The notes under the pieces were generated by a model that saw only the letters and a program-made list of their open reading frames with translations, searched no databases and had not been told where the DNA came from. The translations under genes were made by a program, and so were the position numbers. A DNA stretch of 32,707 nt from Elioraea sp. Yellowstone (GTDB lineage: Bacteria > Pseudomonadota > Alphaproteobacteria > Acetobacterales > Acetobacteraceae): positions 1-32,707 of the forward strand of contig NZ_VIKA01000026.1 of NCBI RefSeq assembly GCF_006704265.1. The letters run 5' to 3'. This document shows positions 5,412 to 8,976 of the stretch, one piece after another (the stretch's first letter is position 1; every line of letters begins with the position of its first letter).

Positions 5412-5426
5412 TGCGAACCGCTCGCA
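5412..5426. promoter_or_regulatory. Second, weaker Fur-like inverted repeat upstream of fbpA
   Basis: TGCGAACCGCTCGCA is a near-perfect 15-bp inverted repeat, with TGCGA mirrored as TCGCA. It lies 32 bp upstream of the stronger Fur-like box, so the two centres are about three helical turns apart. It departs from the AATGRTT core seen in the other boxes, so it may be an auxiliary site or chance. Confidence 0.35.
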
Positions 5427-5443
5427 GATGCCCTAGGAGTCGC

Positions 5444-5458
5444 TGCGAATGATTTTCA
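5444..5458. promoter_or_regulatory. Fur-box-like operator in front of fbpA
   Basis: TGCGAATGATTTTCA matches the 7-1-7 Fur box (TGATAATnATTATCA) at 11 of 14 informative positions. It lies 22 bp before the fbpA start, where a bound repressor would block transcription start or elongation. A poor promoter candidate (TTGCGA at 5411, TAGGAG at 5434) precedes it. Two similar boxes stand in front of the other two genes of the cluster. Known biology: Fur with ferrous iron represses ferric uptake genes. Confidence 0.68.
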
Positions 5459-5480
5459 ACATCAACAGCGACGGGACGCC

Positions 5481-6527
5481 ATGACCGACCGCACGATCCT
5501 GCTCCGCCGCCGCACCGCCCTGCTCGGCGGGGCCGCTCTCCTCGCCGCGCCGGCGCTCGTGCGCGCGCAGGAGAAGGTGGTGAACGTCTATTCCTCCCGC
5601 CACTACGACACCGACCGCGCGCTCTATGACGGCTTCACCGAGGTCTCGGGCGGGGTGCGCGTGCGGCTGATCGAGGGCGACGCGGACCAGCTGATCGAGC
5701 GCATCCGCAACGAGGGGGCGAACAGCCCGGCGGACGTGCTGATCACGGTGGATGCGGCACGGCTGGTGCGGGCGATGGACGCGAACGTGCTCGCCCCGAC
5801 CAGGAGTGCGACGCTGGAGAGCCGCGTGCCGGCGCATCTGCGCGACCCCGACGGGCACTGGTTCGGCCTCTCGAAGCGTGCGCGCGTTCTCATCGTGCCC
5901 AAGGACTGGACGCCGCCGAAGCCGCTCGCCCGCTACGAGGACATCGCCGATCCGGCGTTCCGCAACACGATCCTCGTGCGCACCGCGAGCCACGTCTACA
6001 ACATCTCCCTCGCCGGCTCGATCCTGGCCGCGAACGGCGAGGCGGCGTTCGAGCAGTGGGCGCGGGGCGTGGTCGCCAACATGGCGCGCCCGCCGCAGGG
6101 CGGGGATACCGACCAGATCATGGCCGTGGCCGCCGGCCAGGGCAGGATCGCGGTGAGCAACACCTACTACTTCGCGCGCCTGATCCGCTCGTCGAAGGCC
6201 GAGGACCGGCAGGCGGCGGAGAAGCTCAAGGTGATCTTCCCCAACCAGGAAGATCGCGGCACGCATGTCAACATCTCGGGCGCCGGCGTGGTGCGCACGG
6301 CGCCGAACCGCGACGCGGCGGTGGCCTTTGTCGAATACCTGACCTCGGTGAAGGCGCAGGAGATGTTCGCGCGCGGCAACAACGAGTACCCGGTGGTGGA
6401 CGAGGTGAACGTCGTGCCCGAGGTCGCCGCCTGGGGCCGCTTCAAGGAGGACCGCCTGAACGCGGTCGCCTATGCGCGCAACGGCGCGAAGGCGCTCGAG
6501 ATCATGCAGCGCGTCGGCTGGCGCTGA
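5481..6527 (+). CDS. fbpA: Periplasmic ferric-ion-binding protein of an Fbp-type ABC importer
   Basis: This 348-residue extracytoplasmic solute-binding protein is of the FbpA/FutA ferric-binding type, which carries unchelated Fe(III) across the periplasm to an ABC permease. The N-terminus has an Arg-rich n-region (LLRRRTALLGG) before a hydrophobic stretch ending ALVRAQE. This resembles a Tat-type signal, although the motif is not canonical. The mature protein starts KVVNVYSSRHYDTD, the family entry motif with a Tyr and His available to the metal. SNTYYFARL provides the hallmark adjacent tyrosines (Y229, Y230) that bind iron in this family. The gene sits behind a Fur-like box and ends at a strong terminator (6539). 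The permease is encoded 0.7 kb on, on the opposite strand, and no ATPase is nearby. Confidence 0.9.
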   Translation: MTDRTILLRRRTALLGGAALLAAPALVRAQEKVVNVYSSRHYDTDRALYDGFTEVSGGVRVRLIEGDADQLIERIRNEGANSPADVLITVDAARLVRAMDANVLAPTRSATLESRVPAHLRDPDGHWFGLSKRARVLIVPKDWTPPKPLARYEDIADPAFRNTILVRTASHVYNISLAGSILAANGEAAFEQWARGVVANMARPPQGGDTDQIMAVAAGQGRIAVSNTYYFARLIRSSKAEDRQAAEKLKVIFPNQEDRGTHVNISGAGVVRTAPNRDAAVAFVEYLTSVKAQEMFARGNNEYPVVDEVNVVPEVAAWGRFKEDRLNAVAYARNGAKALEIMQRVGWR

Positions 6528-6538
6528 GGGTTGTCCGT

Positions 6539-6563
6539 GAAGGGGGCTCAGGCCCCCTTCTTC
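6539..6563 (+). terminator. Intrinsic terminator of fbpA
   Basis: A perfect 9-bp stem (GAAGGGGGC / GCCCCCTTC) with a TCAG loop begins 11 bp after the fbpA stop and runs into TTC. The U-tract is short, but the stem is very stable. It separates fbpA from the following small gene, which has its own Fur-like box. Confidence 0.7.
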
Positions 6564-6574
6564 CGCGCCACAGT

Positions 6575-6589
6575 TGAGAATGGTTCGCA
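6575..6589. promoter_or_regulatory. Fur-box-like operator abutting the start of the unknown gene
   Basis: TGAGAATGGTTCGCA matches the 7-1-7 Fur box at 10 of 14 positions and shares the AATGRTT core with the boxes at 5444 and 8962. It ends one base before the ATG at 6591, so it occupies the place where a ribosome binding site would be. A repressor here would cover the transcription start of a very short-leader or leaderless mRNA. Confidence 0.6.
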
Positions 6590-6590
6590 A

Positions 6591-7067
6591 ATGAGCGCCG
6601 AGGCGGCGACCCTGCATCCGGATCGAAGCACCGCGACCACCACGGTGCCGGATCTCGACCGCGCTGCTCAGCTCGCGCTGTTCGCGCTGCGGGGCGCGGC
6701 CGCGCGCGGCGGGACAGACGCGCCGCTCTGTCTCGCCTTCGCCCGTGCCGGGATCTCGCCGCGCGCCATCGCGGTCTTCACCGAGTTCATCGCACTGCTC
6801 GATGCAGGCACGCGTGGCACGATCGTGCTCCACGCGCCCCCTCAGGCGGCGCTGTCGCGCGACGAGGCCCTGCTGCTGACGGGGCTGGCGGCCCTCCAGG
6901 CCGGCGAGCCATGGGTCGCGCAGCGCGCGGTGGCGGAATGGCTCGCGCCCTGCCTCGCGCCGCGCGGCATAGCGCTCATGGCCTGCGCCGCGGCCGAACT
7001 GTGCCGGGCCGGGCTCAGGCTGCAGCGAAGGCCAGCCGCGGTCGGTCCGCCGCGCCTCTCGAGCTGA
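6591..7067 (+). CDS. Unknown 158-aa protein in the iron cluster, probably Fur-regulated
   Basis: I do not recognise the family. The protein is predicted mostly helical and soluble, Ala/Leu-rich, with no signal peptide or clear membrane span. Recognisable stretches are AAQLALFALRGAAARGG, AIAVFTEFIALLDAGTRG, VLHAPPQAALSRDEALLLTG and a Cys-containing C-terminal part. No metal-binding CxxC or His cluster is evident. The ATG at 6591 directly follows a Fur-like box and has no Shine-Dalgarno. An in-frame TTG at 6531 would lengthen it through the fbpA terminator hairpin, which is unlikely. Codon use is like the neighbours, with GC-rich third positions. Position between ferric-binding protein and permease genes suggests a role in iron uptake or its control, but that is inference. 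Confidence 0.7.
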   Translation: MSAEAATLHPDRSTATTTVPDLDRAAQLALFALRGAAARGGTDAPLCLAFARAGISPRAIAVFTEFIALLDAGTRGTIVLHAPPQAALSRDEALLLTGLAALQAGEPWVAQRAVAEWLAPCLAPRGIALMACAAAELCRAGLRLQRRPAAVGPPRLSS

Positions 7068-7174
7068 ACCCGATCGCTCCGCCGTTCACGTTCCCCTCGC
7101 GGCGGGGCGTCTCCCAGGGCACCCCGGACCCGTTCCCCCGGGGCATTGCCCCAATATCGCTCCGTTCCCACTTG

Positions 7175-7208
7175 CGCCCCGGGCAGCCCGCCCGGGGCGT
7201 CCTGTTTT
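7175..7208. terminator. Strong intrinsic terminator between convergent genes
   Basis: A perfect 10-bp stem (CGCCCCGGGC / GCCCGGGGCG) with a 5-nt loop is followed by TCCTGTTTT on the plus strand. It lies in the 167-bp gap between the unknown gene (ending 7067) and the convergent permease gene (ending 7235). The T-rich tail favours termination of plus-strand transcripts. Nothing else recognisable lies in this gap apart from a short GGGGCATTGCCCC inverted repeat at 7140. Confidence 0.75.
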
Positions 7209-7234
7209 CCGGAATGGCCCAGCCTGCCCCGCCC

Positions 7235-8878
7235 TCAGCCGTGCCCGGTGCGCTTCATCGCCCGCGACAGCAGCGCGACGGGGATCAGCCCGACCGCGAC
7301 GATCAGCAGCGCCGCCGTCGAGGCCTCGGCGAGACGCTCGTCCGAGGCGAGGTTGTAGACGCGCACCGCGAGCGTATCGAGATCGAAGGGCCGGACGATG
7401 AGCGTCGCCGGCAGTTCCTTCATCGTGTCGACGAAGACGAGCAGCAGGGCTGCGAGCAGGCTGCCGCGCAGGAGCGGCAGATGGACCGCGAGCAGGGTCC
7501 GGCCCGGACCGCGGCCGAGCACGCGCGCGGCGTCCTCCACCGTCGGCCGGATGCGCGCCAGTCCCGCCTCCACCGAGGAGAGCGCCACCGCGAGGAAGCG
7601 CACGACATAGGCGAAGACCAGCGCGGCCATGGTGCCGGAGAGCAGCAGCCCGGTGGAGACGCCGAAGCGCGTCCGCATCCAGGCATCGACCGCGTTGTCG
7701 AACAGGCCGAACGGGACGAGCACGCCGACCGCGATCACCGAGCCCGGGATCGCGTAGCCCATCGCCGCGATGCGCGCGGCCGCCCGCATCGTCAAGCCGC
7801 CGCGCAGCCGCACGCCGTAGGCGACCACCACCGCGATCGCGGTGGCGATCACCGCGGCCACGCCCGAGAGCACCAGGCTGTTGCGGGCGAAGGGCAGGAT
7901 CGTCGGGCCGAACAGCGGGTCGCCCTCGGTCAGGGCGTAGCGCAACAGCACATGGGCCGGCAGCAGGAAGCCGAGCAGGACGGGCAGCGCGCAAGCGAGC
8001 ATGGCGGCCGCTCCCGCCGCGCCGCCGAGCGGCGAGCGGGTCAGCGCCTGGTGCTTCGAGGAGGTGTTGTGGAAGCGCCGCGGCCCGCGCGCCGCGCGCT
8101 CGAGCGCGAGCAGCAGCGCGACCACGCCCATCAGGCAGGCGGCGAGCTGCAGCGCCGCCACCCGGTCGCCCATGGTCAGCCAGACCTGGTAGATGCCCGT
8201 GGTGAAGGTGCGCACCGCGAAGTGCTGCACCGTGCCGAAATCCGCCAGCGCCTCCATCAGGGCAAGCCCGGTGCCGGCGGCGATGGCGGGGCGTGCGAGC
8301 GGCAGGCCGATGCGGAAGAACACCTGGCGGCGGTTGCAGCCGAGCGTGCGCGCGACCTCGGCGAGGCAGACCGACTGTTCGAGGAAGGCGGCGCGCGCGA
8401 GGAGATAGACATAGGGGTAGAGCACCAGCCCCAGCATCGCGATGGCGCCGCCGACGCTGCGGATCTCGGGGAACCAGTACTCGCCCCACTGCCAGCCGAA
8501 GGTGGCACGCAGCCAGGTCTGCACCGGTCCGGTGAACTGCAGCAGGTCGGTGTAGACATAGGCCATCAGATAGGCCGGCACCGCGAGCGGCAGCAGGAGC
8601 GCGATCTCGAAGACGCGCCGTCCTGGAAACTCGTGCATGGTCACGAGCCAGGCCGTGCCGGTGCCGATGACGATCGCGAGCGCGCCGACGCCGACCGCGA
8701 GCAGGGCGGAGTTCAGCACGAACTCGGCGAACACCGTGCCGACGATGTGCTGCCAGGCCGGCCCGGCCGGCCTGAGCGCGCCGATCAGCACGGCGAGGAT
8801 CGGCGAGGCGACCAGCAGGGCGACGAGGACGGCCGCGACCGTCCAGGCCGAGTGTGCGCGCAGCGCCGCCCGCGCCAT
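7235..8878 (-). CDS. fbpB: Fbp-type iron ABC transporter permease (fused, about 12 membrane spans)
   Basis: This is an inner-membrane permease of about 547 residues with two BPD-transporter-like halves, as in FbpB/SfuB/HitB. Each half ends with an EAA-type coupling segment: EVARTLGCNRRQVFFRIGLP in the first and EDAARVLGRGPGRTLLAVHL in the second. The known partner would be a ferric-binding protein, and fbpA is encoded nearby. The start is ambiguous. The ATG at 8878 begins just before the first membrane span (AWTVAAVLVALLVASPIL); GTGs at 8926 and 8992 would extend it. The 8992 choice would place the Fur-like box inside the coding region, so I prefer 8878. No ATPase gene (fbpC) is found in the window, so the ATP-binding subunit must be encoded elsewhere. 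Confidence 0.88.
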   Translation of the reverse strand: MARAALRAHSAWTVAAVLVALLVASPILAVLIGALRPAGPAWQHIVGTVFAEFVLNSALLAVGVGALAIVIGTGTAWLVTMHEFPGRRVFEIALLLPLAVPAYLMAYVYTDLLQFTGPVQTWLRATFGWQWGEYWFPEIRSVGGAIAMLGLVLYPYVYLLARAAFLEQSVCLAEVARTLGCNRRQVFFRIGLPLARPAIAAGTGLALMEALADFGTVQHFAVRTFTTGIYQVWLTMGDRVAALQLAACLMGVVALLLALERAARGPRRFHNTSSKHQALTRSPLGGAAGAAAMLACALPVLLGFLLPAHVLLRYALTEGDPLFGPTILPFARNSLVLSGVAAVIATAIAVVVAYGVRLRGGLTMRAAARIAAMGYAIPGSVIAVGVLVPFGLFDNAVDAWMRTRFGVSTGLLLSGTMAALVFAYVVRFLAVALSSVEAGLARIRPTVEDAARVLGRGPGRTLLAVHLPLLRGSLLAALLLVFVDTMKELPATLIVRPFDLDTLAVRVYNLASDERLAEASTAALLIVAVGLIPVALLSRAMKRTGHG

Positions 8879-8961
8879 CGGCGGTCCGGCAGGGCGGCCG
8901 GCTGAGAGGGCGATGTCCTGCGGCACGGGTCGATCGGCGGCCGGTCGGGGCGCGCGGTCCC

Positions 8962-8976
8962 TGCAAATGGTTCTCA
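8962..8976. promoter_or_regulatory. Fur-box-like operator upstream of the iron permease gene
   Basis: TGCAAATGGTTCTCA matches the 7-1-7 Fur box at 10 of 14 positions and has the same AATGGTT core as the box at 6575. It lies in the 157-bp gap between the flavin-reductase-like gene and the permease, about 84 bp upstream of the preferred permease start at 8878. This argues for an independent iron-regulated promoter for the permease. Confidence 0.6.

Follow-up and report, generated by a model that had tools for sequence, protein, structure and literature searches.

The Fur-boxed iron cluster of Elioraea sp. Yellowstone

We analysed a 32,707-nt stretch of the genome of the alphaproteobacterium Elioraea sp. 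Yellowstone (Acetobacteraceae; contig NZ_VIKA01000026.1, positions 1 to 32,707), hereafter the window, in which a small cluster of iron-uptake genes carries three predicted binding sites (Fur boxes) for the regulator Fur and, behind one of the genes, a conserved structured RNA. The first gene, fbpA (5481-6527, plus strand; start corrected to 5481), encodes a periplasmic ferric-iron-binding protein of the FutA/FbpA class, of 348 amino acids (aa), which was identified by phmmer and by Pfam SBP_bac_6. It is 87% identical to FbpA of Elioraea tepidiphila DSM 17972, and its closest solved relatives, similar over approximately the full length, are the FutA/FbpA proteins 6g7n (E 5e-109), 2voz and 2pt1. 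On the same strand follows a gene for a 158-aa protein (6591-7067), a member of an unnamed small-protein family of Acetobacteraceae with a predicted six-helix fold (homologue profile, AlphaFold). The third gene, convergent with the second, encodes a ferric-iron ATP-binding cassette transporter permease of 547 aa (7235-8878, minus strand; corrected start probably the ATG at 8878) with two fused BPD_transp_1 domains (Pfam PF00528, matched in two stretches). Its scores against the named NCBIfam permease models were all under the curated cut-offs, and its orthologues directly adjoin fbpA in many genomes (for example, at loci L036, L041 and L069); judged by these neighbours and by the fused domains, FbpB-like is a fair name for it. 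Unlike in FutA/FbpA systems, the permease gene is convergent here and does not share an operon with fbpA. The cluster revealed no ATPase gene, and none was searched for elsewhere.

Each of the three genes, including the permease gene on the opposite strand, is preceded by a Fur-box-like palindrome of the 7-1-7 type at the position reported in the initial annotation. Scored at 14 positions against the inverted-repeat consensus TGATAATnATTATCA, the main fbpA box TGCGAATGATTTTCA (5444-5458, plus strand) matches at 11/14, with the start codon 22 nt downstream; the box of the 158-aa gene TGAGAATGGTTCGCA (6575-6589, plus strand) matches at 10/14 and ends 1 nt short of the start codon; and the permease box TGCAAATGGTTCTCA (8962-8976, minus strand) matches at 10/14 and is located 83 nt from the probable start codon. 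This recount agrees with the earlier values and exceeds what is seen in shuffled sequence: only four 15-mers in the window reach at least 10/14, the three sites and one at 5450 (10/14), whereas the mean for dinucleotide-shuffled windows is 0.35, with 0.5% of the shuffles yielding at least three. The site at 5450-5464 is a second 7-1-7 palindrome that overlaps the main fbpA box with a shift of 6 bp. The weaker repeat that had been described three helical turns upstream of the first site is real as well. This palindrome, TGCGAACCGCTCGCA (5412-5426, plus strand; 15.1 bits with a matrix derived from the three main boxes), begins 32 bp before the main fbpA box, start to start, and the pair recurs with a spacing of 32-34 bp in 7 of the 8 Elioraea fbpA loci. 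Paired boxes spaced by 22-24 bp are found in ten other Acetobacteraceae loci; these spacings approximate whole helical turns.

The genes had also been described as divided by terminators. The terminator scan detects an intrinsic terminator hairpin (7174-7200, plus strand) where the 158-aa and permease genes converge; one such hit is expected by chance, and the hairpin, which is also the third hairpin of the structured RNA described below, covaries across species. Between fbpA and the 158-aa gene lies a GC-rich hairpin followed by TTCTT (approximately 6542-6559, plus strand), by its sequence a probable terminator. Its T run is too short for the scan, and a GC-rich hairpin with a T-rich stretch occurs at the equivalent position in the related loci L020-L023, among which L021 is from E. 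tepidiphila, L022 from Elioraea rosea and L023 from a metagenome-assembled genome. No equivalent hairpin is present in L103/L104, where fbpA and the 158-aa gene are adjacent.

Conservation of the boxes in relatives

Absence of the sites from orthologous loci had been named as grounds for rejecting them; in the Elioraea relatives, the boxes are present. They occur at all three orthologous genes in L021, L022 and L023, and at both genes covered by the contig of L020. The box at 6575 is identical in L020 and L021 and variant in L022 and L023, and the permease box is kept in L021-L023 and found also in L025 and L058. The picture of three separate units fits this genome, but not some other Elioraea (G001 and G004), in which fbpA is immediately followed by the 158-aa gene, with neither a terminator nor a box in between, so that the latter gene would remain under the fbpA box. 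Such joint loss of box and terminator is what one would predict for a box that serves a promoter.

Beyond the genus, fbpA orthologues were searched with the matrix derived from the three window sites only, at a threshold of at least 15 bits in 230 bp around the start. A box was detected in 51 of the 75 non-Elioraea orthologues, loci that are related by kinship and do not represent 75 independent events, compared with 0.9% for shuffles and 1.2% for random windows. With 200 column-permuted matrices, the mean was 0.5 fbpA loci and the maximum 40, a single outlier. In the 158-aa family (loci including L215-L244, L127, L033 and L054), 30 members were fetched, and 23 of them showed a box scoring 15 bits or more in the 260 nt before the gene; among random windows from the same loci, the proportion was 1.4%. 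It could be objected that three related sites of one window were chosen by eye, and that they are chance matches or have been inherited through kinship within the genus without any function. Given the rarity of three such sites in the shuffles and, above all, the conservation at matched positions across many genera, both at fbpA and in the 158-aa family, we regard this explanation as exceedingly improbable.

No Fur box was found at the fbpA orthologues of Phreatobacter and Beijerinckiaceae-type records (L036, L038, L041 and L091). Iron control in Rhizobiales uses Irr and RirA, and absence of the box is expected if other regulators control iron in these bacteria. The best-scoring stretches upstream of the four box-less loci include TTGCAATCGTTCTAA and TTAGAATTCATCTAA, which, by eye only, we take to resemble Irr-type boxes.

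Fur boxes elsewhere in the genome

The genome (3.82 Mb) was searched with IUPAC (International Union of Pure and Applied Chemistry) degenerate patterns, with the backward-read pattern as a control. The pattern shared by the three sites, TGMRAATGRTTYKCA, has exactly three matches, all at this cluster, and its control none; this pattern was drawn from the sites themselves, and the independent tests are provided by the relatives and by other iron genes. The looser palindrome TGMRANNNNNTYKCA occurs at 13 places (backward control, 10). Matches with good matrix scores lie before bfd-bfr (contig C45), before hemP, confirmed by Pfam and followed by a TonB receptor gene (C98), and upstream of another TonB receptor gene (C336); boxes in this genome are enriched before iron genes. 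Exact palindromes at C122, C290 and C333 have unlike centres and low scores, are not located before iron genes and were discarded as chance occurrences; apart from the two places described next, the remaining TGMRANNNNNTYKCA places look like chance, too.

Good Fur palindromes were also observed before the genes for a 79-aa protein (L006, C210:22548) and a 112-aa secreted protein (L005, C144:11839), neither of which has a Pfam match; these genes are further candidate Fur targets. A second palindrome lies just beyond the 3' end of the Fur-boxed TonB receptor gene of C336 (L124:3801-3815, C336:34300).

The regulator and the predicted mode of control

Only two proteins of the Fur family are encoded in the genome: Fur itself and a Zur-like protein, whose gene adjoins that of a COG0523-like GTPase. 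The nearest solved relative of Fur (L018:1088-1516; PF01475, 116.6 bits) is MgFur of Magnetospirillum. The DNA-contact residues Lys15, Tyr56 and Arg57 are kept, as are the essential site-1 ligands H33, H88, H90 and E101, with E81 replaced by Asp in Elioraea (E81D). By contrast, the second metal site, formed in MgFur by H87, D89, E108, Q111 and H125, carries the replacements D89H, Q111A and H125S in this genome. Asp89 is changed to His or Tyr in every Acetobacteraceae Fur examined, and many of them also lack His125 and Gln111; despite this decay, site 1 and the DNA contacts are kept in these proteins (L129-L149, L155 and the Fur of this genome). The seven alphaproteobacteria sampled from other families all retain HHDH, Gln and His in their Fur and keep both sites. 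In vitro, MgFur does not require its second site to bind DNA, and we did not take this site as defining Fur; a Fur lineage with a decayed second metal site but a canonical operator bears on the role of that site.

The feoAB1 operator protected by MgFur, TTAATCGCAACTCATTCGCAATTGC, includes on its opposite strand the sequence TGCGAAT, which is a half-site of the fbpA box, and TGCAAATCATTTGCA, contained in the operator variant on which MgFur was crystallised (PMC4506495), scores 23.6 bits with the three-site matrix. The palindrome and half-sites of the cluster are the same as those of the feoAB1 operator and of the Caulobacter Fur regulon (PMC3751524), and iron uptake, TonB receptors and bfd are target kinds common to these systems. 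The cluster differs in that fbpA, the fbpB-like permease gene and the 158-aa gene each form a unit of their own, and in that one kind of target is a protein family without a name. Within Acetobacteraceae, the Fur of Gluconacetobacter complements an Escherichia coli fur mutant (PMC9368920).

Could the sites belong to another metalloregulator, either the Zur-like paralogue or a Fur-derived, manganese-sensing Mur as in Rhizobiales? The second Fur-family protein beside the COG0523-like GTPase and the altered second-site ligands of Fur are compatible with such an assignment. However, the targets are iron genes (fbpA, bfd-bfr, hemP and TonB receptors), the first-site ligands and base-contact residues of Fur agree with MgFur, and the fbpA orthologues of the four Rhizobiales-type records are those that carry no box, which makes this alternative very unlikely. 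Most probably (roughly 0.9), the three sites are Fur operators that control fbpA, the 158-aa gene and the fbpB-like permease gene, with Fur binding and an iron response as predictions. The Fur reading of the initial annotation is supported by the boxes of the relatives and by the occurrence of the same palindrome before genes for iron storage, hemP and TonB receptors.

Under iron-replete conditions, Fur dimers loaded with Fe(II) would occupy the 7-1-7 palindromes and block transcription of the three genes; at fbpA, two overlapping dimers might bind, along with a weaker dimer 32 bp upstream. When iron drops, Fur would leave, so that the ferric-iron uptake pair would be made, as would the 158-aa protein together with its 3' untranslated region (UTR). 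Less certain, and outside the probability given above, is the last step, in which RNA of this 3' UTR would be released as an iron-starvation small RNA (sRNA).

Several points weigh against Fur control as proposed here. We infer Fur binding, repression and the iron response of the cluster from sequence; the sigma-70-type promoter scan of the region recognised no promoter; conservation of the permease box is mainly within Elioraea; loss of the second-site ligands implies that the metal response of Elioraea Fur could differ from that of model Furs; and the regulator search covered the Fur family but not RirA-type regulators. Overall, the box finding is solid but ordinary, defining part of the Fur regulon in a poorly studied group. 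The structured 3' RNA, a putative sRNA, is the interesting part; both this RNA and the 158-aa family, with its conserved Fur boxes, deserve follow-up.

The 158-aa protein family

A profile of the 158-aa family detects members in 44 of 150 Acetobacteraceae genomes, representing 33 of 102 genera, often with two or three paralogues per genome and up to three. This unnamed family joins the conserved Fur-boxed genes of Acetobacteraceae. Many members contain a C-x-x-C-type motif (NCVCC, RCCHCP or CPLCP) just before the start of a conserved helix that contains D/E, and this motif is lost in the Elioraea members. Searches of Pfam, NCBIfam and solved structures (PDB) returned nothing significant for the 158-aa protein, and no Pfam or NCBIfam model matched the other members tested. 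The AlphaFold model consists of six helices (predicted local distance difference test score, pLDDT, 81.5). It has no Foldseek match at E <=0.001, and the best VIA match (Z 5.1, 11.2 Å root-mean-square deviation) is not usable.

A structured RNA in the 3' UTR

The 3' UTR of the 158-aa gene contains a predicted conserved structured RNA (7072-7208, plus strand) that consists of three hairpins and an invariant single-stranded linker, as indicated by folding z-scores, a covariance model and covariation. The folding z is -3.6 here, -3.6 in L021 and -3.9 in L023. The covariance model, for which just two other Elioraea supplied the sequences, has 7072-7208 as its single match in the genome (E 2.6e-5) and finds one copy each in G001-G004, G003 being an E. 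tepidiphila-like genome of the same genus; the RNA is present in L020-L023 as well. It occurs in all seven Elioraea with the 158-aa gene and always behind that gene, whereas the 53 non-Elioraea genomes searched contain no match to the model and no convincing homologue was found outside Elioraea. Among the seven species, 11 base pairs are changed on both sides (4.6 in shuffles), 96% of cells pair (39-55% for slid structures) and the covariation score is 0.44 versus 0.18, in an alignment fitted to the structure, towards which the pair counts lean. An alignment by primary sequence mis-registered the hairpins and was rejected; RNAalifold detected only two covarying pairs on it. By ungapped identity, the conservation of the RNA stretch exceeds that of the preceding gene for 20 of the 21 species pairs and matches it for the remaining pair, a comparison in which high GC content raises both values.

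Between hairpins 2 and 3 lies the 12-nt core AUCGCUCCGUUC (7156-7167, plus strand; listed as ATCGCTCCGTTC among the features and also cited as CGCUCCGU). This putative seed is identical in the seven Elioraea and mostly unpaired, with a mean unpaired probability of 0.61-0.94 against 0.40-0.47 for the rest of the RNA, and it is C-rich, as are the loops. The Fur box is located about 480 nt upstream, before the host 158-aa gene, and the sigma-70 scan found no promoter of the RNA's own. An invariant, mostly unpaired core between covarying hairpins suggests a base-pairing sRNA that would originate in the 3' UTR of a message under predicted Fur control, and 7072-7208 is our candidate.

Tentatively, at rather less than even odds, we propose that under iron starvation the AUCGCUCCGUUC core of this sRNA blocks the ribosome-binding sites of messages for iron-rich or iron-storage proteins. 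Genome-wide, the complement of the core, ACGGAGCG, is followed by ATG within 10 nt at 18 places, against 8 for its backward-read control; the 18 places include the starts of bfr and of a narG-like gene. In the ribosome-binding region of bfr, GGACGGAGCGtgcgATG (L004:1868-1882, C45:3212-3226), 8 nt are complementary to the core. Of the RNA-bearing genomes G001 and G061, the former keeps this complementarity and the latter lacks it, as does G006, where no RNA was found; the examination of more species thus weakened bfr as a target, and it is a lead only.

The absence of the bfr site in an RNA-bearing species would also fit another account, to which we give close to an even chance: 7072-7208 might be a mere long terminator or an mRNA-stabilising 3' end that yields no trans-acting sRNA. 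The RNA does end in an intrinsic terminator, has no real match in Rfam and is predicted from sequence, yet neither termination nor stability needs an invariant, mostly unpaired 12-nt core between covarying hairpins, or C-rich loops.

As a base-pairing sRNA, the candidate would resemble RyhB, PrrF, NrrF and FsrA in its Fur-boxed transcript and in its unpaired, C-rich, invariant core; conserved structure, an unpaired seed and a terminator, all characteristic of the RyhB type, are found in 7072-7208. In contrast to those sRNAs, its source would be a 3' UTR that belongs to a coding gene. If the proposal is correct, it would represent an analogue of RyhB in an alphaproteobacterial Fur regulon, made together with a small protein of a Fur-boxed family, and may belong to a type of regulatory RNA so far unreported for this class of bacteria. 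RusT of Caulobacter is likewise an iron-linked sRNA of an alphaproteobacterium, but is encoded by a free-standing, NtrX-controlled gene without a recognisable Fur site; its authors found it intriguing that the Caulobacter Fur regulon has no known sRNA (PMC11005374). The RNA described here provides a precise candidate for an alphaproteobacterial sRNA of this missing, Fur-controlled kind. A precedent for its layout, a small-protein mRNA with an sRNA-yielding 3' UTR, is CcaF1/CcsR1-4 of Rhodobacter (PMC8625941), which differs in being controlled by oxidative stress, in encoding a DUF1127 protein, where the 158-aa protein has no Pfam match, and in yielding four sRNAs.

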